Virus record (IMG/VR): IMGVR_UViG_3300025828_000036
Location: 1 to 48,854 of that record
DNA from: a virus
DNA length: 48,854 bases
Direction: 5' to 3' (one strand)
Made by a program: the position numbers and the translations under genes. Positions 1 to 48,854 of this stretch are shown here, one piece after another (position 1 is the stretch's first letter; every line of letters begins with the position of its first letter). The notes under the pieces are model-generated. The model saw only the letters and a list, made by a program, of their open reading frames with translations, was not told the origin of the DNA and made no database searches.

Positions 1-174
1 CAGCTTCTGGCAGCTGGCTCAAAACTGCTATATTCACCACATTTTCCGCCTGATTGCCAATGTTTAGCAATGAACTGGCACGTTTCTGTATAGATTCGGC
101 AATTTGTTCACGTTTCTGCCAGTCTCTGAGATCTAAGCTATCAGATTGCCAGTTTCGGAGCGTGTTAGCGCTAG
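1..174. repeat. terminal direct repeat, left copy (circular assembly overlap)
   Basis: These bases recur at 48681-48854 with one difference, g at 128 versus a at 48808. The repeat lies inside an open reading frame that continues correctly across the junction, so the molecule is circular or circularly permuted in the assembly rather than bounded by true short terminal repeats. The mismatch is synonymous (CTC versus CTT, Leu) in that frame. Confidence 0.93.
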
Positions 175-430
175 CCTCAATATCATTAGCTAATTGATCT
201 CTCACCAGTTCTGCTATCTGCTCAATACTCTTCTGTTCTAGCTTGGCAATCGGCTTTGCCCGCTTTGGCGCTGGCTTGGCAATGCTTTTCAAATTCCAAC
301 CGTTCCGCTTCGCATTATATGTTAACCCTCTGACACTGGCTCCGGTTGCGTCTGCAATATCTTTCCAGCTGCTTCCCTCAGCTCTCATTTTCTTAGCTAG
401 CCTTAACTGGTCCTCACTGATCTTAACCAT
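1..430 (-). CDS. HTH protein spanning the contig junction; candidate terminase small subunit
   Basis: The ATG is at 430 and the frame is open to base 1, where it continues at 48680 and ends with TAG at 48657-48655, giving 151 residues. Residues 1-45 look like a helix-turn-helix of the resolvase/small-terminase type (SWKDIADATGASVRGLTYNA). Two amphipathic helical stretches follow (about 60-130) and an acidic tail. A small HTH protein with a helical oligomerisation region fits a terminase small subunit, and no other candidate is seen, but it is 13 kb from the large subunit. A plain transcription regulator is the alternative. No strong ribosome site is visible. An AACCT-AGCTA-AGGTT inverted repeat lies just upstream (443-457). 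Confidence 0.6.
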   Translation of the reverse strand, partial: MVKISEDQLRLAKKMRAEGSSWKDIADATGASVRGLTYNAKRNGWNLKSIAKPAPKRAKPIAKLEQKSIEQIAELVRDQLANDIEASANTLRNWQSDSLDLRDWQKREQIAESIQKRASSLLNIGNQAENVVNIAVLSQLPEA

Positions 431-3073: not shown

Positions 3074-4246
3074 ATGGAACAAAACCCGAAAACAATGACG
3101 CAGGCAGAGCTACGCAGCTATCTGCGTGAACGTAAGAACAACGACGAGATCAACTTCACCAATCCAGACAGCGAAAAGCACTGGACACCGTTTGTTAACG
3201 GCCAGCTAGCTGGGTTTGGTGTAGATGCACTGCGTGTTGTAGCCACAACGTGGTCCTTCCCACCTGAGGGCTATGTGCTGCCATCTGCTGGCGATCCTCA
3301 GCCAGAACCTGAGCGCAAACCTCTGGTTCGTAAGAAGGAGAAGCCAGCTATCAGTCGTGAAGACTTGATCGAGATCCTCACTGGTAGCAGTGGTGATAGC
3401 CTAGATGAAGAGGACATCAGGAGAATCGTGGACGATCAAGTCACCGAGCGACTAGCTAGAGGTGGTATGCCTGAGAAGAAAATCATCATCACCCCAGTCA
3501 GTAAGGTGAAGATTGACGAGGTAGTCCACGAGAAGTTTGAGGATGTGACTACAATCATAGGCTGCGGAGAGAATGCGGCTATAGTCGGTGGAGCTGGGAC
3601 TGGTAAGACATTTATGGCTGAGCTGATAGCTAAGGCTCTGGACCTAGACTTCTACTTCACCGGTAAGGTTGACACTGAGCACCAGCTCATTGGATACCGT
3701 GATGCACACGGTCAATACTTCGAGACTGCTTTCTTCAAAGCGTTCACTAAGGGTGGTCTGTTTCTGTGGGATGAGTTCGATGCTAGCTCACCACGGGCAG
3801 CGACTAGGTTCAACAGTGCCATAGCTAACCGGATATGCGATTTCCCTACAGGCAACTATAAGGCTCACGAAAACTTCAGAGTCATCGCAGCCAGTAATAC
3901 TTATTGGAGTGGTGCTACCCGTGATTACGTTGGGCGCAACGAGATGGACAAAGCTACTAAGGATCGCTTCGTCTTTGTCGATGTTGATTACGACACCAAA
4001 GTCGAGAACGCTATAGCTAGCCAATACACTGGAGGGCTAGCGATTGCCAAGCGAGTGCAAGCGGTTCGTGGTGCTCTTCAGAAGCTTAAGATTCGCCACA
4101 TCGTGTCAATGCGGGCAACTGTGTCCGTAGCTAAGCTGATCAACGCTGGGTTCAGTCAGGAGAAAGCTGAGAAGTATGCAATGTGGAAAGACTTATCAGC
4201 TGAACAGATCGCTAAGATCGAAGCTCTGATCGGAGGTGCGAAGTGA
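3074..4246 (+). CDS. MoxR/CobS-type AAA+ ATPase
   Basis: A 390-residue protein. Residues 172-179 are Walker A (GGAGTGKT), 229-234 Walker B (LFLWDEFD), and an ASNT/RDR-type sensor and arginine-finger stretch follows (RVIAASNTYW; KATKDRFVFVDV). The 'DTEHQLIGYRDAHGQYFETAFFKAF' segment before Walker B is typical of MoxR/dynein-related ATPases. The first 140 residues are a charged, low-similarity extension. MoxR ATPases act as chaperones together with VWA-domain partners, and the next gene, overlapping by 4 nt, is VWA-like. The phage role (remodelling a phage or host complex) is inferred. The start has no Shine-Dalgarno (see the ATA tract). Confidence 0.85.
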   Translation: MEQNPKTMTQAELRSYLRERKNNDEINFTNPDSEKHWTPFVNGQLAGFGVDALRVVATTWSFPPEGYVLPSAGDPQPEPERKPLVRKKEKPAISREDLIEILTGSSGDSLDEEDIRRIVDDQVTERLARGGMPEKKIIITPVSKVKIDEVVHEKFEDVTTIIGCGENAAIVGGAGTGKTFMAELIAKALDLDFYFTGKVDTEHQLIGYRDAHGQYFETAFFKAFTKGGLFLWDEFDASSPRAATRFNSAIANRICDFPTGNYKAHENFRVIAASNTYWSGATRDYVGRNEMDKATKDRFVFVDVDYDTKVENAIASQYTGGLAIAKRVQAVRGALQKLKIRHIVSMRATVSVAKLINAGFSQEKAEKYAMWKDLSAEQIAKIEALIGGAK

Positions 4247-5130
4247 GCGACATCATAGATCTGGACGAGCTGAAGCGAGCTTACCCAGTGTCAAGTGCTG
4301 TCTGTTTTGACACTGTGTATGAGGCTATTGACTCAGCTAATAATAAGCAGAGCCTGTTTGACGATCCGTCATCCCAAAGAACTGACCGCAAAGATTGGAG
4401 TGGTTCTAGTGACTGGAAGGAGATGGAAAAGATTGTTCGCACCGGATGGGTCGAGGGCAGAGCGTCTATCTCGTCGGGGTTGGACACTCTTTATCGGAGC
4501 AATTCAGTCTCCATATCGTCTGGGAGGGATGCTGATTACGATGTAGCCGGTGCTTACCCAGATGTGCCTCTAGCTATATCTGGCGAGCTAGAGCATATGG
4601 TCAATACGGGTGATGAAATCGACTGTAAGCCTATCATTAGATTGGTGATCAATGTAGGGGCCAACTGGACCGTGGATTCACGGCAGCTTATGAACCGAGG
4701 CGCAGCAGTTGCTGCACTGGTTGATGAACTGGAGAGTGGTGGTAGCAGTTGTGAGATTCACGCCGTCTGGACACCGAAGAAAATAAACGGTCGTGCTCAG
4801 GCTGTTTATTGCATCGGCGTTAAGCGAGCGGGTGAGTCTACATCCATAGACGACATAGCGTTTTGCTTAGGTCACACTGCTATGCTTAGGCGCGTGATGT
4901 TTTCAGCTATGGAACGCCACCCCTTCGCTCACAATCACCGATTTTACGGGAGCGGATGCTACGGCACAACGGTTGACATAGATGAATACAGATGGCCTAG
5001 CGATTGTGTTTACCTAGCCTCGATTACGAATAACCCAGATCCATACTGCACTCCTGAGGGAGCTATGACTGAGGTGCGTAAGCTATACGAGGCACAGGCT
5101 AAAGCTAAGCAGTTGGAGGTTGACGTATGA
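4243..5130 (+). CDS. VWA-like partner of the AAA+ ATPase
   Basis: A 295-residue protein. Residues 131-180 (RLVINVGANWTVDSRQLMNRGAA..., then ELESGGSSCEIHAVW) have the strand-loop-helix-strand order of a von Willebrand A domain: a hydrophobic strand, then helix with N-R-G-A, then 'CEIHAVW'. The MIDAS motif DxSxS is not intact; the loop reads NVGANWTVDS. The first 110 residues are variable and acidic. Translational overlap with the MoxR-like gene (ATGA) supports a two-component MoxR-VWA pair. The assignment rests on pattern and gene pairing, so structure prediction would decide it. Confidence 0.55.
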   Translation: MSDIIDLDELKRAYPVSSAVCFDTVYEAIDSANNKQSLFDDPSSQRTDRKDWSGSSDWKEMEKIVRTGWVEGRASISSGLDTLYRSNSVSISSGRDADYDVAGAYPDVPLAISGELEHMVNTGDEIDCKPIIRLVINVGANWTVDSRQLMNRGAAVAALVDELESGGSSCEIHAVWTPKKINGRAQAVYCIGVKRAGESTSIDDIAFCLGHTAMLRRVMFSAMERHPFAHNHRFYGSGCYGTTVDIDEYRWPSDCVYLASITNNPDPYCTPEGAMTEVRKLYEAQAKAKQLEVDV

Positions 5131-5342: not shown

Positions 5343-5744
5343 ATGAAACATAAGTTCATTATCACACTCAGTGTAGACATCAGCAAAGTCAGCGACACAT
5401 ACGCTGCGCTATCGTTAGTGGATGGAGTCAGGATCGACAGCGTGGAAGCATCCTCGCCTGTCGTTGTTGAGAGCAACGGCAACGGGCATATGCCTGAGAA
5501 GCCAGTAGCTAAAGCTAAGTCCAAAGCTAAGGCTAAGGCTAAGGTTAAGAGGAACACCTCAATTATGCACACCGACCCTCGCGCTGTGTTGAAGTGGTCC
5601 AGCGGCAAGCATGTGCTGAACACTGATGCTACACTAAAAAACTTAGGCATCTCTAAGTCTGATCTGCTGAAGATGAAGACACGCAACGGCACGCTTGAGG
5701 GTGCGCTGAAGCGCAGCATTGCACACACAGGAGGTAACCAATGA
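5343..5744 (+). CDS. basic protein with Lys/Ala repeats (histone H1-like linker)
   Basis: A 133-residue protein starting at the ATG 5 nt after ATAAGGAATAAA; an upstream in-frame ATG at 5298 lies in the leader hairpin and is less likely. Residues about 55-69 are an imperfect Lys-Ala tandem (KAKSKAKAKAKVKR), encoded by near-perfect AAAGCTAAG-type 6-bp DNA repeats. Such tails bind nucleic acid non-specifically in bacterial H1-like proteins. The C-terminal part (about 85-133) looks like a small folded helical domain. It may be a nucleoid-type or DNA-coating protein, or may tether its C-terminal domain to DNA. Repeat number could vary by slippage. Confidence 0.75.
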   Translation: MKHKFIITLSVDISKVSDTYAALSLVDGVRIDSVEASSPVVVESNGNGHMPEKPVAKAKSKAKAKAKVKRNTSIMHTDPRAVLKWSSGKHVLNTDATLKNLGISKSDLLKMKTRNGTLEGALKRSIAHTGGNQ

Positions 5745-13257: not shown

Positions 13258-13644
13258 TTATTTGGCTCGTTTAAGATGTTCTTTCAGCAATGCGGTTAGC
13301 TCAGGATTCATAGTCACGCCTTCCAAAGCTGTTAGGACATCGTTCTTTTTAAGATTAGGTGTTGCAGCCAGTTGTCTGGCTCGGTTTTCCCAGTAGGTTT
13401 TCTTCTCGCCCTCTCTCTGTCGCTGGGCCATATCGTCAGATGGCTTGCCCCCAAGCGTGTCAAAACCTGCCTTAAACTCATCCCAGTTCGGTGGGTTTTT
13501 GAGCTTCCAGTATGGGACATATTTGGCTCCAAAGTTCTGCTCCAGATATTCTATGATTTCCTCATCAGTCATCTCGTCCGGTTTTGGTTGCAAAAAATGG
13601 ACGGCGGTAAAATCGACAGCCAATTTGCCGCTTTCATTTAGCAC
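13258..13644 (-). CDS. hypothetical protein following DnaB
   Basis: A 128-residue protein with a GTG start at 13644 overlapping the helicase stop by 7 nt. It is charged and helical, with an internal 'TDEEIIEYLEQNFG' helix and a C-terminal 'NPELTALLKEHLKRAK' helix. Coupled translation with DnaB hints at a replication role, but no motif supports one. Confidence 0.6.
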   Translation of the reverse strand: MLNESGKLAVDFTAVHFLQPKPDEMTDEEIIEYLEQNFGAKYVPYWKLKNPPNWDEFKAGFDTLGGKPSDDMAQRQREGEKKTYWENRARQLAATPNLKKNDVLTALEGVTMNPELTALLKEHLKRAK

Positions 13645-15008
13645 GCAACCTGCTGTTTTCGCTTCTCGTTAAGCCACATCTCGTGCTGTGGTAGCGATGC
13701 CTCCTCAAATCTGGTCTTATTCCTGACCAGCACTAGGTCAGCTGAGCCCTGTCGCCCTGCCCTGTTCTTCCCCACAGCTACCTTCAACAAGCTGTTCGGG
13801 CCGTCGAACATTGCGGGGTCTTCGCAATACAGGAAGAGGATCACATCAGCGTCCTGCTCAATAGATCCAGACTCTCTGAGCATCGACATCGTGGGCCGCT
13901 TATCAGCAGTCCTCTCCGCTTCGCGGCTTAGCTGTGCCAGTGCCAGCACTGGGATCTGGAGTTCCATAGCCATCTGCTTCAATCCGCCTGAGATGGCGGC
14001 GACCTGTAGATGACGATCCTTCTTACGATCCTCAGTCCCAGCTTTGATTAGCTGGAGGTAATCAATGATGATCAGCTTCACGCCGTGCTCCTTAACCAAG
14101 CGTCGAGCGTGGCTGCGGATCTGAGCTACCGTAAGTGATGAGTTGTCTATGATGTGGAGCGGTGCTTTGGATAAGCTGGGAGCCGCTGCGCTAGCTTTGC
14201 CTATGGTTTGCAGTCGTCCCTCGTGGTCTTTGCCGTGGTTGAGGATGTCTCCCATCAGATCACAGTCTGATTTGCTGGCCCACATACGCAGGTTCAGCTC
14301 GTCCTGAGTCATCTCGTAGCTGAAGAAAGCTACCGGAACATCGTTGGTGGCTAGGTGCATTGCGATGTTACCAGCGATAGCTGACTTACCCACAGCTGGT
14401 CTCGCAGCTAGGACAATCAATTGACCGGGGCGCATACCACCTAGGATGCGGTCCAGAGACGGGAACCCCATAGGAATCCCCGTCTCCTTCCCCTTATGCG
14501 CGTCTTCCAGCATCTCAATGAGCCGTCTGAAAGACTCCTTCCTGTTGTCTGATGTGTTGTCAGAGATTACTTTGCGGTTCAGCTCGAACACGACTGACTC
14601 AGCGCTGGCCACGAGATCATCGAGGTTATCAGAGTTGCCGCACTCCTCAGCTAGCTTCAGCCCCACCTCCTGCACCAGTCGGGCCTTCCGCTTTTCCTCC
14701 ACTACCTCAGCCCAGTAACTCCAGTTGTAAGCACTGGGACAGGCATCGAGAGCGTCATTGACATCAAGCAGCCCCGGAAGCTTTGTGGTGTCGTTTCCCT
14801 TAAATCGGTGGCAGAGTGTCTCACCACCTATCAAAATGCCGTCAGAATCCATCCTCGTGATTTCTCGCCACATCAGACGGGCTTTGAGGTCGTGAAAGTG
14901 TTCTTCGTTGATCCCTACGGAGCAGAGATCGTTGTATTTGCCCTGTAGGGCTGCACCGATTACGCCTAGCTCAGCGGGTCGGTCGTTTGGGATTGAATAG
15001 GTTTTCAT
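13638..15008 (-). CDS. dnaB: replicative DNA helicase, DnaB family
   Basis: A 456-residue helicase of normal length. The start is the ATG at 15008 (MKTYSIPNDRPAELGVIGAAL), where DnaB N-terminal similarity begins; the open frame to 15227 is the shadow of the initiator gene. N-terminal hairpin domain 10-150; RecA-like domain with Walker A ARPAVGKS (202-209), 'FFSYEMTQDEL' (228-238), Walker B LIIIDYLQL with D316, and 'LAQLSREAE..RP.MSMLRESGSIEQDADVILFL' in the C-terminal part. It unwinds DNA ahead of the host polymerase; no phage polymerase or primase is seen. It lies 4 bp after the initiator, the same order as lambda O-P or P22 18-12. Confidence 0.95.
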   Translation of the reverse strand: MKTYSIPNDRPAELGVIGAALQGKYNDLCSVGINEEHFHDLKARLMWREITRMDSDGILIGGETLCHRFKGNDTTKLPGLLDVNDALDACPSAYNWSYWAEVVEEKRKARLVQEVGLKLAEECGNSDNLDDLVASAESVVFELNRKVISDNTSDNRKESFRRLIEMLEDAHKGKETGIPMGFPSLDRILGGMRPGQLIVLAARPAVGKSAIAGNIAMHLATNDVPVAFFSYEMTQDELNLRMWASKSDCDLMGDILNHGKDHEGRLQTIGKASAAAPSLSKAPLHIIDNSSLTVAQIRSHARRLVKEHGVKLIIIDYLQLIKAGTEDRKKDRHLQVAAISGGLKQMAMELQIPVLALAQLSREAERTADKRPTMSMLRESGSIEQDADVILFLYCEDPAMFDGPNSLLKVAVGKNRAGRQGSADLVLVRNKTRFEEASLPQHEMWLNEKRKQQVAC

Positions 15009-15012
15009 AGAA

Positions 15013-15540
15013 TCAGTAGCTCGCATCCTGTAGGTAACGAGCCTCTTCGAGTGTTGTTGTTTTGCGTGGAGAGGAGGATTGCTTGGCAGTCTTACGAGCC
15101 CAGCCCTTAAACATAGCTTTCCAATCAACGAGCGGTTCGCCACGATGCAGCCAGTTGCGCTCTTCGTAGTGGTCGTAAAACTCCTCAGCCAAATCGGGGC
15201 GCGAAGCCTTAGCGGCATACGCCGCAACCTCCTCCTTCGTCGGAGCAGAAGCAGAGAAAGAAGGCATAGCGGGTTTAGCCTTCTCTTCTTTATTACTACT
15301 ACTACTACGTAGGAACGGTTGTTCCGGTTTTAGGAACGCTCGTTCCGGTTTTAGGAACAGCTGTTCCTCGGCAATTTTTGCCTCCCTCACTGCTTGACGC
15401 ACCGCACGGGTGGTTACACCTAGCAGTCTGGCCACCTCAGATTGGCTGGCATTAGGGTAGGTGTAGACCAGTCCGATCATCACCTTCTTACCCAATGACA
15501 GGTCAGTTTTGAGTATCTCATCTGGGATCTCGATCAGCAT
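15013..15540 (-). CDS. replication initiator / helicase loader with origin inside the gene
   Basis: A 175-residue protein. The ATG at 15540 has GGAG 3 nt upstream and is preferred to a TTG at 15549. Residues about 15-56 form a winged HTH (NASQSEVARLLGVTTRAVRQAV). Residues 103-150 match the C-terminal domain of phage O/DnaD/primosomal loaders (EFYDHYEERNW...PLVDWKAMFKGWARK). Between them residues 58-77 are a heptad repeat (LFLKPER, AFLKPEQ, PFLRSSS) because the DNA here is three 21-bp iterons. Lambda O has the same plan: DNA-binding domain, origin within the gene, helicase-binding domain. The gene directly precedes dnaB. Confidence 0.75.
   Translation of the reverse strand: MLIEIPDEILKTDLSLGKKVMIGLVYTYPNASQSEVARLLGVTTRAVRQAVREAKIAEEQLFLKPERAFLKPEQPFLRSSSSNKEEKAKPAMPSFSASAPTKEEVAAYAAKASRPDLAEEFYDHYEERNWLHRGEPLVDWKAMFKGWARKTAKQSSSPRKTTTLEEARYLQDASY
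15290..15367 (-). other. origin-like element A: three palindromic iterons plus TAG repeats
   Basis: Three 14-bp palindromes GGAAC-N4-GTTCC at 15312-15325, 15333-15346 and 15354-15367, period exactly 21 bp, with spacers GGTTTTA. Read on the minus strand the last palindrome is followed by TACG, four TAG and two TAA (15307-15290). The same order recurs at 48383-48473 on the plus strand. Iterons plus a TAG/TAA run and a following A-rich stretch resemble a replication origin. Confidence 0.7.
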
Positions 15541-15898
15541 CTTCTCCAACCCTCTCCACTAGATCTGAACGACTGATGATACTTAGGAAATCCTCGCCAC
15601 TAAGCGTGACAAGCCAACCGAATTGGTTCTTCGTGTGTGCGACGACTGGCATCTTCCCAGCGCAGTCCATCTTCGCTTGCATATAAGCGCCCCAAATATT
15701 GAGTCTCTCGACGTTTTTCACCTCCCAGTGGATACTGGGTAGCTCAGCGCAAACAACGTCCGCAGAAGAGCCGTCAGGAGCCTTCCCGCTGAATTGGCTG
15801 GAGCGGTAGGTAGTGGCAGGATTGAAGCCCATCTGCCTCAGCATATCCCGCCACATACGCTCACCGCGTTTGCCCTTCTCACGCTGCGACTTGCCCAT
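15518..15898 (-). CDS. PD-(D/E)XK resolvase-like nuclease
   Basis: A 126-residue protein with the resolvase-type PD-(D/E)XK core: E13 in KGKRGERMWR, D47 in SSADVV and E59-x-K61 in IHWEVKNVE, followed by 'MPVVAHTKNQFGWLVTL'. This pattern is common in phage proteins annotated as Holliday-junction resolvase-like and placed in replication/recombination operons. It lies between the RecB-like exonuclease and the initiator, overlapping both. It probably resolves branched DNA during replication or before packaging. Confidence 0.75.
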   Translation of the reverse strand: MGKSQREKGKRGERMWRDMLRQMGFNPATTYRSSQFSGKAPDGSSADVVCAELPSIHWEVKNVERLNIWGAYMQAKMDCAGKMPVVAHTKNQFGWLVTLSGEDFLSIISRSDLVERVGEDADRDPR

Positions 15899-16751
15899 CT
15901 GCTACCTCCCTAGCGTTGGCTGCTGGATCGAATGAGTTGGTGAGCTGCCAGATCTGGTTGGCTGCTTGGAATACCTTCCACGCATCAGCGACTTCTTCAG
16001 TCGTCCAGATCTTCGTGATCGGATAGCACGGAGCCTGCGAGCAGAGCACCACTGACATCACCTGCTGGATCTTCCTAGGCTTGTTGGGCCAGCTAGCGTT
16101 TTTGTATGCAGCCAGCTGCCAGATCCAACTCTCATACCAGTTAGGTTTCAGCTGACCCTTACTGTCCTCCTTAACGTCCTGCGTTTTGTAGTCCAGTAGG
16201 GTCAGCTTTCCACCCACTACCGCTAGTGCGTCTACCTGACCGGCGTATCCCAACCTCTCGTTAACGGCAGTAAACTCTGTGTCCAGAAACTGAACCTGCT
16301 CATCACGGGTCCACTGGATGTAGTGCTGAACAAACGGTTTAACCTCGTTGTATTCCTCGGTCAGAAAACCTGTCTTATTCAGCTCATCAATAGCTGCGTG
16401 GAACAGGCTCCCGAATGCCCTAGCATCCACCATCTTCTTCTGGGCGAATGCACGCACACGACTCTCATACTCACCAAGCTCATCGCCAGACTTTAGCGGG
16501 TTGGCTATGCAAGCATTGAAGATCTGCTGCTGCTTCCACCGATCCAGAGACGGGTTGGCTATCACCTTAGTTATGGTCGTAACGCTGGGGAATAACCCTA
16601 GCTTACGAGCATCGCGTTTGGTGGTGTTGCGAGGCTTACCGTCTTTAGAGAGGACAGTGTGCTGAGGACGGCCATCAGTGTGATACCAATGACCGCCCCC
16701 ATCACTGTTCAGCTCTCTGGTTCTGGTGTCTGGTTGAGCTGAGAGAAACAT
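15879..16751 (-). CDS. RecB/Cas4-like exonuclease
   Basis: A 290-residue protein from the ATG at 16751 (AAGG upstream); a longer frame to 16865 would overlap the SSB-like gene. Active-site marks of the RecB-type PD-(D/E)XK fold are AFGSLFHAAIDE (H118), LGYAGQVDALAVV (D174) and LTLLDYKTQ (D187, K189), followed by 'WYESWIWQLAAYKNA' (Q-Y motif). No four-cysteine iron-sulphur cluster is present. It is expected to degrade DNA ends, in recombination or host DNA breakdown, working with the SSB-like protein encoded just upstream. Confidence 0.82.
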   Translation of the reverse strand: MFLSAQPDTRTRELNSDGGGHWYHTDGRPQHTVLSKDGKPRNTTKRDARKLGLFPSVTTITKVIANPSLDRWKQQQIFNACIANPLKSGDELGEYESRVRAFAQKKMVDARAFGSLFHAAIDELNKTGFLTEEYNEVKPFVQHYIQWTRDEQVQFLDTEFTAVNERLGYAGQVDALAVVGGKLTLLDYKTQDVKEDSKGQLKPNWYESWIWQLAAYKNASWPNKPRKIQQVMSVVLCSQAPCYPITKIWTTEEVADAWKVFQAANQIWQLTNSFDPAANAREVADGQVAA

Positions 16752-18097: not shown

Positions 18098-18216
18098 TAT
18101 GATTTTATCCTAGTTGTGATGGTGGGACAATACCTGTCCAAGCCCCCATCGAGTTATTAACAACCAGAGAATTTCCAACGGAACAACTGAGGTGGCTCTC
18201 TGAGCCTAAAATTGTG

Positions 18217-18277
18217 GGGTTCGAACCAGCGACTCCTGCCGTGTGAAGGCAGTGCTCTACCACTGAGCTAAGCGTGC
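18217..18277 (-). tRNA. partial tRNA-Val (CAC), probable attP core
   Basis: Sixty-one bases match a bacterial tRNA from position 1 to 62: acceptor 5' strand, T8-A9, D-arm GCTC/GAGC, anticodon arm CTGCC-TTCACAC-GGCAG with anticodon CAC (Val), variable loop, GCTGG and TTCGAAC followed by CC. The match then stops: the T-stem 3' strand should read CCAGC but reads CCCAC, and the following bases do not pair with the acceptor. So it is not a functional tRNA but the part shared with a host gene, the usual mark of an integration site. Confidence 0.75.
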
Positions 18278-18344
18278 TAAAGGACGAATAGAGTTGCGGG
18301 AACAACACGTATTAGGCGGTCAGAAACTACTCCGGTTGGTTCCG

Positions 18345-18376: not shown

Positions 18377-19183
18377 ATGAACACCGAACAAACTTGGGAT
18401 CGCCTGATCTCCATCTACGCTAGCACCGGTAAAGCCCCGACAAAGCAGCGCAAACTTCACGAGTTCAGTAAGAAACGCTGGAACAAGCTGAAGCAAACCC
18501 GTATAGACCAAACCACAGGCACAGACTTTCTGGAGCTGATGGAAGCCGGTGGTCAAATGACCCAGCAATACCTCTCCAGCCTCCAGTCATTGTCTATAGA
18601 ACTGGGCATCCGATCCCACGTTGTGCTGCCTAAGAAATATTGGCCTAAGATCGTCAGGAAACCTAAGCGTGGCATCACTGAGGATGAGCATCGCAGGTTG
18701 CAATCCAACATTCACAGCATCCGCTGGAGGATTTACTTAGAGATCCTGTGGGAAACGGGTGCTGCCCAGTCAGATGCTGCCTCGTTCCGAATCGAACTGC
18801 TGGGCCGGGACGAGATCATCTACAACCGGATGAAGACAGGCCAGCGTGCAGCTCAAGCCATCAGCCCAGAACTACGCAGACTGCTCGACTCAGCCATCGC
18901 TGGCAGGAAAAGCGGATTCATTCTTCCCAATATCCAGCAACTACACAGTAAAGACAGAGCGTCGATCTTCCGCAGAGCGTGCAAGCGTCTGGGGATAGAG
19001 GGTGTGACACTTCACAGCTACCGCTATGCGTGGGCTGAGAGAGCGTTCGAGCTAGGGATGCCAGAGAGGCTGGCGATGGTGGCGCTAGGTCACAACAGCT
19101 CGGCAATACATCGCGTCTACGCGAAGGGAGCGAAGGTAGTGGCTCCATCACTGTCTAGCTACAAAGCTACTTCTTCCTCTTAG
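18377..19183 (+). CDS. int: tyrosine recombinase / integrase
   Basis: A 268-residue enzyme. N-terminal core-binding region 1-105, catalytic domain 106-255. Catalytic marks are K153 in NRMKTGQR, H213-x2-R216 in LHSYRYAWAER, G238-H239 and the nucleophile Y248 in IHRVYAKGA. The first arginine of the R-K-H-R-H-Y set is absent: the usual TGLRxSE reads T127-GAAQSD. I know this variant from verrucomicrobial/planctomycete-type recombinases, which points to the host. It should integrate the phage at the tRNA-Val-like site just upstream. Confidence 0.9.
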   Translation: MNTEQTWDRLISIYASTGKAPTKQRKLHEFSKKRWNKLKQTRIDQTTGTDFLELMEAGGQMTQQYLSSLQSLSIELGIRSHVVLPKKYWPKIVRKPKRGITEDEHRRLQSNIHSIRWRIYLEILWETGAAQSDAASFRIELLGRDEIIYNRMKTGQRAAQAISPELRRLLDSAIAGRKSGFILPNIQQLHSKDRASIFRRACKRLGIEGVTLHSYRYAWAERAFELGMPERLAMVALGHNSSAIHRVYAKGAKVVAPSLSSYKATSSS

Positions 19184-24856: not shown

Positions 24857-25267
24857 TTAGTTGAACTCGGTTACAGCGACAGAGGTGGTTTGACCGCTGG
24901 CACAAACGGCGTGAACCGTTCCAGTGTAGCCCTGTAATGTGACCACACCACCATCTCCAGCATCAGCAGAAGCAGCAGCCTTCAGAATAAACGAGAACCG
25001 TTTGGTTCCGCTAATCACTGGGTCATCTCCGAAGCGGATGTAGACCTTCGATCCAGCGATATTCTGAATGCTAAGAAATTTGCGAGCAGCGTTCGCTGCC
25101 AGAACCGTGCTAGCTGCGTCTGTAACGTCAGCTACGGTATCGTTGTTGAGGGAGGCAGCTTCGCCTCCTAAGTTTTTGAGTGCGCCTAGAATTTTATTCT
25201 GCACCCTCAACGGAGAGTCAGTCACCGACTGGGTTACTCCGTCCGAATAGATCTGTGGTTGATTCAT
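24857..25267 (-). CDS. hypothetical virion protein
   Basis: A 136-residue protein with 'ASTVLAANAARKFLSIQNIAGSKVYIRFGDDPV' (key part: AANAARKFLSIQN), a pattern common in minor head or tail proteins of many phages and usually a single beta domain. Its place just after the capsid gene suggests a head-decoration or joining role. Confidence 0.65.
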   Translation of the reverse strand: MNQPQIYSDGVTQSVTDSPLRVQNKILGALKNLGGEAASLNNDTVADVTDAASTVLAANAARKFLSIQNIAGSKVYIRFGDDPVISGTKRFSFILKAAASADAGDGGVVTLQGYTGTVHAVCASGQTTSVAVTEFN

Positions 25268-25352: not shown

Positions 25353-26624
25353 CTAGCTAGAGCAGGTGGTTACGTCAGTTCCGCTCAGTGCGGAGCCAAC
25401 GCCACAGGCACGCTTGAAGATCAGAGTCATACCGTAGGTAGGGAACTCTGGTCGTGGGGCGTGTTTGAACTCTGCGAAGTGGCGACCCAATTTGTCCAGC
25501 GGGTCCAGACAGGATGCTGCTGGGTTTTGGATCTTGTTACCACCGGTCACCCACTGCCACTCACCCATATAGCTGGTAGGATTCCAGCTAACGCCACCAG
25601 CTGCGTTCACTGGAGGAACGATCTCAGAGGTGAAGACGTTAGGGTTCAGAACAATAGCTGCTTCGTATGGAGCCGCTGCGTATGCTGGGTTCAGCACAGC
25701 CTTCTTACCGCCAGCTGCACCAACAGTAGTCATCAGGTAGGTAGCAACACGGGTGTATTGGCCACTGCCTGAGTCGTAGGTGTAGCGAGGAGGACGCAGA
25801 TTAGGAACGTGCCGGAAGTTCTTAATAGAACGGGTAGCTCCTAGTCGGCTCATCAGCTCAGCTGTGGCTCCCTCACCGCTCTGGGCGTGACGGAAGTCAT
25901 TGCGTAGCTCGCTGTTGTTGAGCGCAATCTGTTGGCTGGCTTCCAGTCCGATGAGAAGAGGGAACACAGGTCCGTCTTCACCGAAGGTGATGTAGCCATT
26001 GCTGTCTGGGTTGGTAGCACCACGGTCGATCAGCTCAACCGCGATCTGGTCGAGGTATTGCTGAGTCAGCGTGGAGGTTGCGTCACCGAGCGTGGTGAGA
26101 GCGGTGATGTCGTTCTCAGTGTCGATGATGCTGTTGGTGTTACCGACGGCAACCTTAGATGCAAACTTGGTGTAGAGAGTCTCGTAGCGTTTTTCCCAGC
26201 TCCGCTGAGCACGCTTGGTCATCTCTTCAATGTAAGCACGCAGGAATACGTCCACATTGTGGTCGTATATCAAATCGTCTTTACAGATGATTGGTCCCTG
26301 AAGTGCGAATGTCTCAGGTGAGTAGCTGCGGGTCGAGTAACCAACTTCAACATCGTTGAAAGTGCTCGCACAGCTACCACCAGCTCCACCGCCAACGCCA
26401 CCGCCAACTCCAGAGGCAGTAACAGTTGTCCAAGTTTCTTCGTCGCTAGTGGGTTCGCTATTCTCGATAGTGAAGGTGGTCTTTGTGACACCAGCACCAG
26501 TTTCAAAAGTTCCGCGTGGGATAGCGTTAAGCCACACAGAACGGTAAGAAGCATTGCGATACACCTCGTCTGAGAGGTTCTCTGTGGCAATCGCAAATGC
26601 GTCAAACACGGTTGAACAAGCCAT
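25353..26624 (-). CDS. major capsid protein
   Basis: A 423-residue protein. The ATG at 26624 has AAGGAG 7 nt upstream; the frame beyond has no support. Length, position after the scaffold block and the overall pattern (long helix 'VFLRAYIEEMTKRAQRSWEKRYETLY', then 'ALTTLGDATSTLTQQYLDQIAVELIDRGA', and a C-terminal axial-domain-like beta region) fit an HK97-fold capsid protein of the podovirus type. A glycine-rich loop (GVGGGVGGGAGGSC, about 75-88) is unusual. Six cysteines, two in the last 15 residues, may form disulphides. It assembles on the scaffold encoded two genes upstream. Confidence 0.8.
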   Translation of the reverse strand: MACSTVFDAFAIATENLSDEVYRNASYRSVWLNAIPRGTFETGAGVTKTTFTIENSEPTSDEETWTTVTASGVGGGVGGGAGGSCASTFNDVEVGYSTRSYSPETFALQGPIICKDDLIYDHNVDVFLRAYIEEMTKRAQRSWEKRYETLYTKFASKVAVGNTNSIIDTENDITALTTLGDATSTLTQQYLDQIAVELIDRGATNPDSNGYITFGEDGPVFPLLIGLEASQQIALNNSELRNDFRHAQSGEGATAELMSRLGATRSIKNFRHVPNLRPPRYTYDSGSGQYTRVATYLMTTVGAAGGKKAVLNPAYAAAPYEAAIVLNPNVFTSEIVPPVNAAGGVSWNPTSYMGEWQWVTGGNKIQNPAASCLDPLDKLGRHFAEFKHAPRPEFPTYGMTLIFKRACGVGSALSGTDVTTCSS

Positions 26625-26841
26625 AATTTTCTCCTTAGAAAAAGTTAGGGATACGATGTTCCACTCGCTCATCCACGCAGATGAGTGCGGATACACCACT
26701 TGCTCGGTAGGCCAATCCCGAATTGGGCCAGTGCGATTGCCAATCGCTGTAGGGCTAATGAGGTGAGCTTTAGTTATGCACGCAGCTCATCGTGCAATAC
26801 CGTTGTCGCGCTAGCTGTGACTAACGTCAAACGGATCTGAA
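26625..26841 (-). promoter_or_regulatory. capsid mRNA leader with hairpins
   Basis: Over 200 bp without a gene upstream of capsid. Hairpins: CCAAT/ATTGG (26712-26726), GCGATT-gcc-AATCGC (26733-26747) and CACTC/GAGTG around 26660-26690. On the minus strand TTTGACGTTAGTC (about 26818-26830) carries a TTGAC-type -35, with no clear -10. A separate capsid promoter or an RNA-stabilising leader is likely, given the high dose of capsid needed. Confidence 0.45.
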
Positions 26842-32800: not shown

Positions 32801-33381
32801 ATCTTCTTCCAACAGTGATCGGGCAGGTTATCGTTCTCCCCCTCAGAGATCACTGATTGTAGTGCATCGAGTGGTATCCAAACCTGTGCCGCATTAAAGC
32901 AGCCGCAATGCTTGCAGGATTTCAGAGAGCTGTCATACGCAGTTTTACGGCCACCTACTATGAACTCGATGGCTTTCTTAACTAGCGGCTTGTTGCACCC
33001 GCTACACCCAGTTGGCTCCACGTTATCCGTGCAAGCAGCGCATATCTCGGCTCTGCGATTAGCTTCGTCTTCGTCTGCCCGCTTGTTACCAGCAGCTATG
33101 AGGGTCTTCGTAAGCCTGACGGCCAACGCTAATGTCAGCGGCTGCGCCTGAGATGGCTTTTGGGATTGGTCCTCACACAACTCTGGTCGCTCGTGGCAGA
33201 TATACATTTCAACAGCATCATCAATGTTAAACGGAACTGGCAGGTTGTTAGCTTTGCGGTGTTGAATCACCCTCTCAACCAATGACCGGAAGTCGTAGGC
33301 AGTGAGAGTGTGATTGGTTTCCTGTTGTGTGTAGCTGTAACCACCGTGAGGGGTTAGAGACGTAGGTATGAGTCGCTTCAT
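32797..33381 (-). CDS. cysteine-rich zinc-binding protein
   Basis: A 194-residue protein. A cluster C-x2-C-x8-C-x2-C (AEICAACTDNVEPTGCSGC, about 112-130) and a second CKHCGC (155-160) form a likely zinc ribbon. Its start is coupled to the large terminase stop (TAATG). Small zinc proteins in this place are common in marine podoviruses; a packaging or head-assembly role is plausible but unproved. Confidence 0.65.
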   Translation of the reverse strand: MKRLIPTSLTPHGGYSYTQQETNHTLTAYDFRSLVERVIQHRKANNLPVPFNIDDAVEMYICHERPELCEDQSQKPSQAQPLTLALAVRLTKTLIAAGNKRADEDEANRRAEICAACTDNVEPTGCSGCNKPLVKKAIEFIVGGRKTAYDSSLKSCKHCGCFNAAQVWIPLDALQSVISEGENDNLPDHCWKKI

Positions 33382-35051
33382 TAGGCAAATGTGTCGTAGT
33401 AGATACTGTCGTATTCCTGCACCATCTGATCCCAGCCAGTCTTACCAGCTTTACTACCAGAAGCGGTGGCGTATCCACCAAGCCTTCTAGCCATCTCCAC
33501 AACCAGAGCTACAGCGTCAGCCAAGTCGGGAGACTTACCTGTTCTGCTTTTCATATCTGCTTTGCGCTCGATGATTGTCAGGCGTTTCTCGTCGTCAAAC
33601 ATGCGACCACAGAACTCAATAACAGCATCGTGCTGCATACCTCGCAGCTGCTCATTGATTGCCCACTGCCTAACACTGAACCATAGCTCAGTAACTTTAT
33701 TGGCATAGACATCGCTGCTCTTACGGTGGTCCTCTGGAGATACGGGCCTGTCGCTAGCCTTACCACCAAACTCGACTCTCTGTATCTGGGGGCTCCAAGT
33801 CTTAGCTAGAATGTCGCACAGCCCTCCACCCTCACCCGTAGCGTCAACAGCTAGGTTACTAGGATGGATGCGGTATTCCTCACATATCTGTCGAGTCCGA
33901 TTTGCAATCTGGAAGTGGACGGGCTCGGATGACTTGGCATCAATCTCGATGATCTCGTTCCTCTCAAGCTGGATGCCCATCTTCCCGTTGTCGAAGTCGC
34001 CATACCTAGCCACTTGAAGGACACACCTGTCGCCACCGTTGAAAGCAGGGTCAAGCCCAGCAATCATTTCGCTTTTCGTGAGGAAGACAGCTGAGTGCAT
34101 TACTCGGTATTTCTCAACCAAGCTCTCGCTGAGGACAGTTTTGCAGACACCTTCTGGAGCCCACATCCCTCGTGTGTATTTCCAGAACTTAGGAGAGTCT
34201 TCGCCGTCATACTTCTGCGCCTGACGAACCTGATCCTCGTTAATCAAAAAGTCATACTTAGATTTTCCAGCTAGGATGTTGGGAGACTTCATTCCGTCAA
34301 AGCGAACGCATATCCCCCGCTCTGTCTCCCACTCATCATCCTCGATGCTCACCGAACCCCACCCGTTCTTAGGCGTGGCAAACCTGCCGTGCTGGTCGAA
34401 CTTGCTATGAGGGTTACCGATAGCTAGGAACTTAAACTCCCGTGTCCCCTTCTGTAAGTTGGAACATGCTTCAAACGCAGCTTCGGGGGTGTCTGTCGCC
34501 TCATCAACGATAACCATCGTGCGCGGAGAGCGGATACCCTGTATGTTGGCGACTGCCTTTGATGTTGCCCCATCTAGAACCGGGATAGCAAAGATAGCGT
34601 GTTTGTCATCACCTCTTATCGCTTGGATGGTGGTTTTGCTGTCAACGATGTGAGCTGGGTAACCACCCTTACAGGTGCGATACAGATCCTGTATCACAGG
34701 CCAACCACGTTTGCGGATCATCTTAGCTGTAGTTGATGTGAGAATGATCGAAGTCAGCAGAGGTGCTGCTAGGAAGTAGACCATAGAATACAAGCTGGCA
34801 GCATACGTTTTGCCGCTAGCTCCGCATCCTGCCCAGCATACCCACTGGTTTTCACACAGCGATTCGATCTGCTTCTCAAGCCACGGATTCCAAATCAGCT
34901 TAGGCCACAGCATAGAAGCTGCGTTCCTAAAGTGTTTGTAGGCTCCTAGTCCACCACGCTCAGGTTTGTGATTAATCCTAAAAGCGTATAACTCCAGCTC
35001 GATCTCGTTTAGTTGCAGGTCAAACGCGAGGTTGTATTTGTGCTTGATCAA
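33381..35051 (-). CDS. terL: terminase large subunit
   Basis: A 556-residue packaging motor. Walker A is GCGASGKT (75-82), Walker B TMVIVDEATD with D183-E184, and the coupling motif 'FLAIGNPHS' (208-216) follows. The RNase-H-like nuclease has D334 (AGLDPAFNGG), D403 (AVDATGEGG) and D512 (PDLADA). The likely start is TTG at 35051 with only a weak GGA upstream; no ATG is available before an in-frame stop. It is the first gene of the leftward virion operon. Confidence 0.95.
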   Translation of the reverse strand: MIKHKYNLAFDLQLNEIELELYAFRINHKPERGGLGAYKHFRNAASMLWPKLIWNPWLEKQIESLCENQWVCWAGCGASGKTYAASLYSMVYFLAAPLLTSIILTSTTAKMIRKRGWPVIQDLYRTCKGGYPAHIVDSKTTIQAIRGDDKHAIFAIPVLDGATSKAVANIQGIRSPRTMVIVDEATDTPEAAFEACSNLQKGTREFKFLAIGNPHSKFDQHGRFATPKNGWGSVSIEDDEWETERGICVRFDGMKSPNILAGKSKYDFLINEDQVRQAQKYDGEDSPKFWKYTRGMWAPEGVCKTVLSESLVEKYRVMHSAVFLTKSEMIAGLDPAFNGGDRCVLQVARYGDFDNGKMGIQLERNEIIEIDAKSSEPVHFQIANRTRQICEEYRIHPSNLAVDATGEGGGLCDILAKTWSPQIQRVEFGGKASDRPVSPEDHRKSSDVYANKVTELWFSVRQWAINEQLRGMQHDAVIEFCGRMFDDEKRLTIIERKADMKSRTGKSPDLADAVALVVEMARRLGGYATASGSKAGKTGWDQMVQEYDSIYYDTFA

Positions 35052-48382: not shown

Positions 48383-48473
48383 GGAACACTCGTTCCTAAA
48401 AGCGGAACAACCGTTCCTAAAAGCGGAACGCTCGTTCCTATGTAGTAGTAGTGTGTATATATAATAGTATAAG
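48383..48473 (+). other. origin-like element B: three palindromic iterons, TAG repeats, AT-rich DNA
   Basis: Palindromes GGAAC-N4-GTTCC at 48383-48396, 48404-48417 and 48425-48438, period 21 bp, spacers TAAAAGC. The last is GGAACGCTCGTTCC, identical to the middle one of element A. It is followed by TATG, three TAG and an AT-rich run. The junction GTTCCTATGTAGTAGTAG differs from that of element A by one base. Being intergenic, with an AT-rich flank, it is the better candidate for the active origin. Confidence 0.7.
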
Positions 48474-48579
48474 ACTGGTATATGGGGGGAGTATGAGGGG
48501 GGATCAGGCAGCGCATAGGGGCTTATTGCCTGATTTGGATTTTACCCAAAAAATGTGTGGGGTCGTATATATGAATGAC

Positions 48580-48604
48580 GGGGGGCCAGAGGGGGGTGGT
48601 GGGG
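48580..48604 (+). other. G-run cluster, possible quadruplex
   Basis: Runs of six, six, two and four G within 25 bases. With the pair of six-G runs at 48484-48502 it makes this strand unusually G-rich next to the candidate origin. Quadruplex formation is inferred. Confidence 0.4.
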
Positions 48605-48654: not shown

Positions 48655-48854
48655 CTAACCATCTATTGCAGAACTACTTGCAGCTTCTGGCAGCTGGCTC
48701 AAAACTGCTATATTCACCACATTTTCCGCCTGATTGCCAATGTTTAGCAATGAACTGGCACGTTTCTGTATAGATTCGGCAATTTGTTCACGTTTCTGCC
48801 AGTCTCTAAGATCTAAGCTATCAGATTGCCAGTTTCGGAGCGTGTTAGCGCTAG
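48655..48854 (-). CDS. second partial copy of the HTH / candidate terS gene (3' part)
   Basis: The window end repeats the 3' part of the gene at 1-430, here with its true stop TAG at 48657-48655. It is an assembly duplicate rather than a second gene. The C-terminal residues encoded only here are ASSSAIDG. Confidence 0.85.
   Translation of the reverse strand, partial: SANTLRNWQSDSLDLRDWQKREQIAESIQKRASSLLNIGNQAENVVNIAVLSQLPEAASSSAIDG
48681..48854. repeat. terminal direct repeat, right copy
   Basis: Repeats bases 1-174 with a instead of g at 48808. See the left copy. Confidence 0.93.

Follow-up and report, generated by a model that had tools for sequence, protein, structure and literature searches.

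A phased palindrome array of an uncultured bacteriophage and its twin inside an initiator gene: most likely two matching replication-start sites

Background

Phage SPP1 encodes its own DnaB helicase and has two origins, oriL and oriR. Both are copies of one initiator-binding repeat array next to an AT-rich tract: the first lies within the initiator gene, and the second, which is intergenic and 12-13 kb away, is bound by the same initiator, gp38 (PMC6316719, PMC3485210). The lambda ori lies midway through the initiator gene O: it has inverted-repeat iterons in tandem and, to one side of them, a tract in which most purines are on the strand that leads away from the iterons (NC_001416; PMC5043065). 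In the basal unwinding system of DnaA, phased duplex-binding sites are followed by a TAG/TAA trinucleotide repeat: published DnaA-trios read 3'-GAT-5', and that of C. difficile (5'-CACCTACTACTATTACTACTATGA-3') lies between the DnaA boxes and the DUE (PMC7561715). At V. cholerae ori2, a non-DnaA initiator (RctB) works with [G/A]ATCA repeats in the DUE, and binding by RctB is experimental (PMC10797057). Here we describe two arrays of an uncultured phage and compare them with these systems.

Results

Two matching arrays in the window

The window (the whole stretch of 48,854 nt analysed here) carries three exact GGAAC-N4-GTTCC palindromes in intergenic DNA, at 48383..48396 (GGAACACTCGTTCC), 48404..48417 (GGAACAACCGTTCC) and 48425..48438 (GGAACGCTCGTTCC). 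The preliminary description of this DNA had reported these palindromes with their spacing of 21 + 21 bp, and to their right TATG, a TAG run (TAGTAGTAG) and an AT-rich run (TGTGTATATATAATAG); all of this was borne out in the sequence. The element formed by the two runs (48439..48478, plus strand; TATGTAGTAGTAGTGTGTATATATAATAGTATAAGACTGG) holds four TAG and no CTA, a TAG count reached by only 0.13% of 40-mers in the window.

A second triplet, overlooked in that description, starts at 15312, 15333 and 15354 on the minus strand (15312..15367; palindromes 15354-15367, 15333-15346 and 15312-15325, again at 21-bp spacing). The window thus holds six exact GGAAC-N4-GTTCC against ~0.07 expected from shuffled windows, arranged as two triplets of exact 21-bp spacing, with none beyond them. 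Read on the minus strand, the second array is GGAACAGCTGTTCC-TAAAACC-GGAACGAGCGTTCC-TAAAACC-GGAACAACCGTTCC-TACG-(TAG)4-TAATAA, the array being followed by TACG TAGTAGTAGTAGTAATAA. The TAG-run element after it (15272..15311, minus strand; TACG(TAG)4TAATAA AAGAAGAGAAGG) is 65% AT and 70% purine on one strand, and its TAG content exceeded that of synonymous resampling (p=0.0005 for the window's copy).

This second array lies within the gene of the winged-HTH protein that the preliminary description had named (15540-15013, minus strand, 175 aa), here taken as the putative initiator gene (15013..15540). An AlphaFold2 model (mean pLDDT 75) predicted an HTH domain (~1-58), a disordered linker (~60-95) and a small C-terminal domain (~100-150), and it is the linker between the two domains that is encoded by the array and the TAG element. 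The protein is an HTH plus a small helical domain and not an AAA+ protein, as judged from sequence families and AlphaFold2. Foldseek against viral models matched it to phage proteins named replication initiator and replisome organizer. Searches of Pfam, NCBIfam and PHROGs returned HTH families and the unnamed phrog_15768 only (the latter matched by 15 of the 15 initiators scanned), and no curated initiator family matched its sequence. PDB sequence and fold searches gave generic HTH matches only. Directly downstream lies the phage's own DnaB-family replicative helicase (13638..15008, minus strand; phrog_19, 5e-96; PF03796, 3e-75), and upstream are two PD-(D/E)XK nuclease genes (15518..16733, minus strand), which together form a replication/recombination operon.

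The record is classed as linear, yet its first 174 bp (1-174) recur at its end (48681-48854) with a single mismatch, from which it follows that the genome is either circularised or permuted or terminally redundant. Measured across the genome ends, the two arrays are about 15.6 kb apart and point towards each other. A near relative, IMGVR_UViG_3300025889_000339, has both arrays on a single contig of 38 kb, where they lie at 5529 and 20106, oppositely oriented and 14.6 kb apart, which matches the arrangement in the window. GC skew, suggested earlier as a check around 48.4 kb, tracked gene direction and marked no origin.

Boxes replaced together with the HTH domain

A search that used aligned sequences of the adjacent DnaB as query yielded about 28 contigs of relatives, and about 25 related metagenomic contigs carried an array in the orthologous initiator gene, with its own palindrome in each lineage. 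For example, the genic boxes were GTATCGATATCGATAC in L155, L157 and L158, GTGAACATCTGTTCAC in L140-L144, TGCGACAC-N4-GTGTCGCA in L153, CTTTACCTTATGTAAAG in L147-L149 and GTATCAATTTTGATAC in L152. Even diverged relatives (DnaB identity 50-70%) had at least three repeats at 20-22 bp spacing in the same gene, with other sequences. A scan with the AAA protein of 3074-4246 found no further arrays. All of these relatives are metagenomic, the diverged lineages are incomplete genomes, and related sequences are mutually non-independent.

Similarity of the boxes followed identity of the HTH domain (partial r=0.61 with the C-terminal domain controlled for, a value not reached in any of 5000 permutations) and was hardly correlated with the C-terminal domain (r=0.10). 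Moreover, three lineages (L146, L151 and L152) have nearly identical C-terminal parts and differ in the HTH and the boxes. Therefore the HTH and the boxes were replaced together.

Covariation of the boxes is also established between the two loci. Four contigs (G018, G021, G022 and L242) cover the region after the large virion gene, and all four have an array at this syntenic place: GTAAAG-N4-CTTTAC repeats in G018, TTGGTAC / TTAGTAC types in G021 and L242, and GTATAGTATAC in G022. The fraction of 7-mers common to the second array and the initiator array of matching type was 0.55 in the window, 0.56 for G018/L147, 0.42 for G022/L156 and 0.52 for G021/L150, and was mostly near zero between unrelated array types. 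Thus the boxes of three of the four further second arrays match a known initiator array, L242 having no clear match. The partner of G021 (L154, of the type of L150) comes from the sample of G021, that of G022 (L156) from the sample of G022, and that of G018 is a sister type; because the two arrays of G018, G021 and G022 are on different contigs, only the window and G002 show with certainty that both arrays belong to one genome. Between G021 and L242 both half-sites changed together (from TTGGTAC...GTACCAA to TTAGTAC...GTACTAA), a difference that suggests selection on the palindrome. On one contig (L145/L240), sequence from left of the second array runs into sequence from right of the genic array; this contig could be an assembly chimera or a product of recombination between arrays. 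A small HNH-like ORF begins just right of the second array in G018 (~24903-25130) and G022 (~26524-26750) and is absent in the window.

A TAG-rich strand kept beside changing boxes

Within 40 nt right of the last box, 15 genic and five non-coding arrays together held 79 TAG versus 14 CTA. Among the genic copies, a TAG-rich strand followed the array in 13 of the 15 sampled lineages. For most copies a TAG count as high occurs in only 0.1-2% of the 40-mers of their own record or contig; the two TAG-free copies and G022 (10%) depart from this. In most relatives this flank is moderately AT-rich only (50-72% AT). A motif directly after the last box, TCC[AG]TACCTAG, is common to several coding and non-coding copies.

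The genic copies held 60 TAG against 10.3 expected under synonymous codon resampling (maximum 20 in 2000 trials). Furthermore, the codon frame of the run differs, being AGT (Ser) in four lineages, GTA (Val) in six and mixed in three. The frame differences, the synonymous excess and the presence of non-coding copies together establish that the constraint acts on DNA and not on protein. This constraint is not absolute: two of the 15 genic copies (L136 and the L140 group) have an A/G-rich strand that lacks TAG, while L144 has TAG despite sharing the boxes of L140.

According to the preliminary description, an origin of this kind would be contradicted by related phages that conserve the palindromes and lose the TAG run. 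The opposite was found, as relatives keep TAG and change the palindromes at both coding and non-coding sites. The search that it proposed for box spacing and TAG/TAA runs in related phages thus recovered the array with TAG in most of them, the two A/G-rich lineages being the part that did not follow.

Discussion

Comparison with described systems

The SPP1 layout, in which the initiator gene and a second, non-coding site bear one and the same repeat array, is what we found here, at a distance of 14.6-15.6 kb. The phage differs from SPP1 in that its boxes are palindromic, phased at 21 bp and turned over between relatives, and in its TAG-triplet strand; no helicase loader was recognised, the virion is of a different type, and the initiator is unrelated by the searches made, SPP1 being compared via papers and not via sequence. 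The genic copy also shares with lambda the inverted-repeat iterons placed between the domain-coding parts of the initiator gene and an adjacent A+T-rich, purine-asymmetric tract whose purine-rich strand runs in the same sense. The TAG-triplet motif, the second array elsewhere and a phage-encoded DnaB (P plus host DnaB in lambda) set it apart, and neither a P-type loader nor an O-family sequence match was found, the only resemblance being a weak structural match to a GpO N-terminal protein (E=0.12). Compared with V. cholerae ori2, there is likewise a short repeated strand-specific motif beside a non-DnaA initiator, but initiator and motif are unrelated to those of ori2, and binding is inferred here, whereas it is experimental for RctB. 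No TAG-triplet element in a phage origin was found in the literature searched, the coverage of which is incomplete.

We consider it probable (about 0.77) that the two arrays are sites of one initiator, the genic one being a lambda-like origin and the one at 48.4 kb a second site comparable to SPP1 oriR. Most likely, then, replication of this phage has two matching start sites, of which the 48.4-kb stretch is one. Its earlier interpretation as a phage origin stands insofar as its anatomy and the comparative evidence fit an origin or initiator-binding site; because of the twin array inside the initiator gene, it is probably not the only or main one.

Alternative readings

How far the intergenic array acts as an origin is the point on which a rival account has most in its favour. 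Possibly, though we hold this to be doubtful, only the genic array is an origin, and the intergenic one titrates or handcuffs the initiator (as an inc-like site) or serves as a fork barrier: additional origin copies block initiation in lambda (PMC4488673), gp38 at SPP1 oriR has been proposed to stall forks (PMC6316719, PMC3485210), and the two arrays point at each other. However, the intergenic copies retain a TAG/unwinding-like tract in addition to the boxes, which would be needless for a pure binding or titration site. It is improbable that the HTH protein is instead a transcription regulator, the arrays its operators and the TAG/AT-rich tract promoter DNA. A 21-bp spacing of palindromes is what operators typically show, the genes on either side of the intergenic array are arranged divergently, and the HTH resembles MarR and sigma-region-4 folds; but one array sits deep within coding sequence, the TAG tract is shared by both arrays, the gene belongs to a replication operon beside dnaB and has structural matches to phage initiators, and a search for promoters of the sigma-70-like type found none at the array.

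Two further accounts concern the TAG run itself. It might have no role as DNA and be only a poly-Ser coding repeat or microsatellite in the linker of the initiator, given that Ser4-6 is encoded in four lineages and that close relatives differ in copy number by whole triplets. This we rejected as highly improbable, since the run persists in a second frame (GTA, Val), recurs in non-coding arrays and exceeds the synonymous expectation. Least probable of all, and rejected too, is a true DnaA-trio with host DnaA engaged on the TAG strand. TAG, TAA and AAG triplets do match the composition of DnaA-trios, a likeness drawn in the preliminary description, but it fails on polarity, as TAG here reads away from the boxes while in published trios it is CTA that does so, and the initiator is not DnaA-like. 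That the boxes are not DnaA boxes, as had been noted, was confirmed: the only exact TTATNCACA in the window is at 5563, with none near either array.

Proposed mechanism and meaning

Under the two-site reading that we prefer, dimers formed by the HTH domain of the initiator would bind the phased palindromes of both arrays. At the genic copy, which we infer to be the primary origin, the initiator complex may strain the adjacent strand-asymmetric TAG/AAG-rich element in the manner of lambda and SPP1 oriL; one strand would then be captured and the phage DnaB, encoded next door, loaded there, the TAG strand presumably being the place of duplex opening or helicase loading. The intergenic copy, as a second initiator site, would be a late or secondary origin, or else a barrier at which bound initiator stops forks and shifts replication to concatemers. 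The palindromes diverge with the HTH, probably to make replication specific to each phage, while the neighbouring TAG-rich strand is kept by selection acting on the DNA. More tentatively, and with less than even odds in our judgement, a non-AAA+ initiator or its DnaB would capture one strand via the TAG triplets themselves; these would be a trio-like single-strand element of separate origin from DnaA and of opposite polarity, selected at two loci while boxes and HTH were repeatedly replaced.

The sequence information for origin opening has until now been hard to separate from that for initiator binding, and here the two have been separated by nature: at two places of the genome, a dozen lineages have exchanged the duplex sites along with the HTH and kept the TAG-rich strand beside those sites. 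Such natural chimeras provide a ready set for work on triplet-guided strand opening or helicase loading without DnaA. Moreover, a large group of uncultured phages seems to have retained the two-site layout known in detail from SPP1.

Other features of the phage and its relatives

A search of genome contigs with the DnaB alignment gave no match to a host. Planctomycetes were considered as host and rejected, a terminase match of 84% in MAG TMED75 and one match of 36% being too unreliable.

A tyrosine integrase and a tRNA-like remnant adjoin each other (18377-19183 and 18215-18285 of the window); a tRNA search at the remnant called no tRNA. From its sequence the pair is a probable attachment site, and the phage may therefore be temperate. 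A small-terminase-like HTH ORF crosses the record ends (430..1 and 48680..48655, minus strand; weak PHROG hits), far from the large terminase at 33381-35051. It adjoins a conserved non-coding G-rich motif (48548-48599; AAAAAATGTGTGGGGTCGTATATAT...GGGGGG...GGGGGGTGG), which is also present right of the second arrays in G018, G021 and G022 and is a candidate packaging or end site. Elsewhere in the window are a CobS/CbbQ-like AAA ATPase followed by a DUF7192 protein (3074-5130) and three tandem sugar-transferase-like genes (PF04488; 10652-12967). An apparently unrelated phage of high GC (L014:9506-9623) carries 5-6 tandem GGAACCACGGTTCCGAATTTG / GGAACCACGGTTCC units of 21 bp near HTH and DnaB genes.
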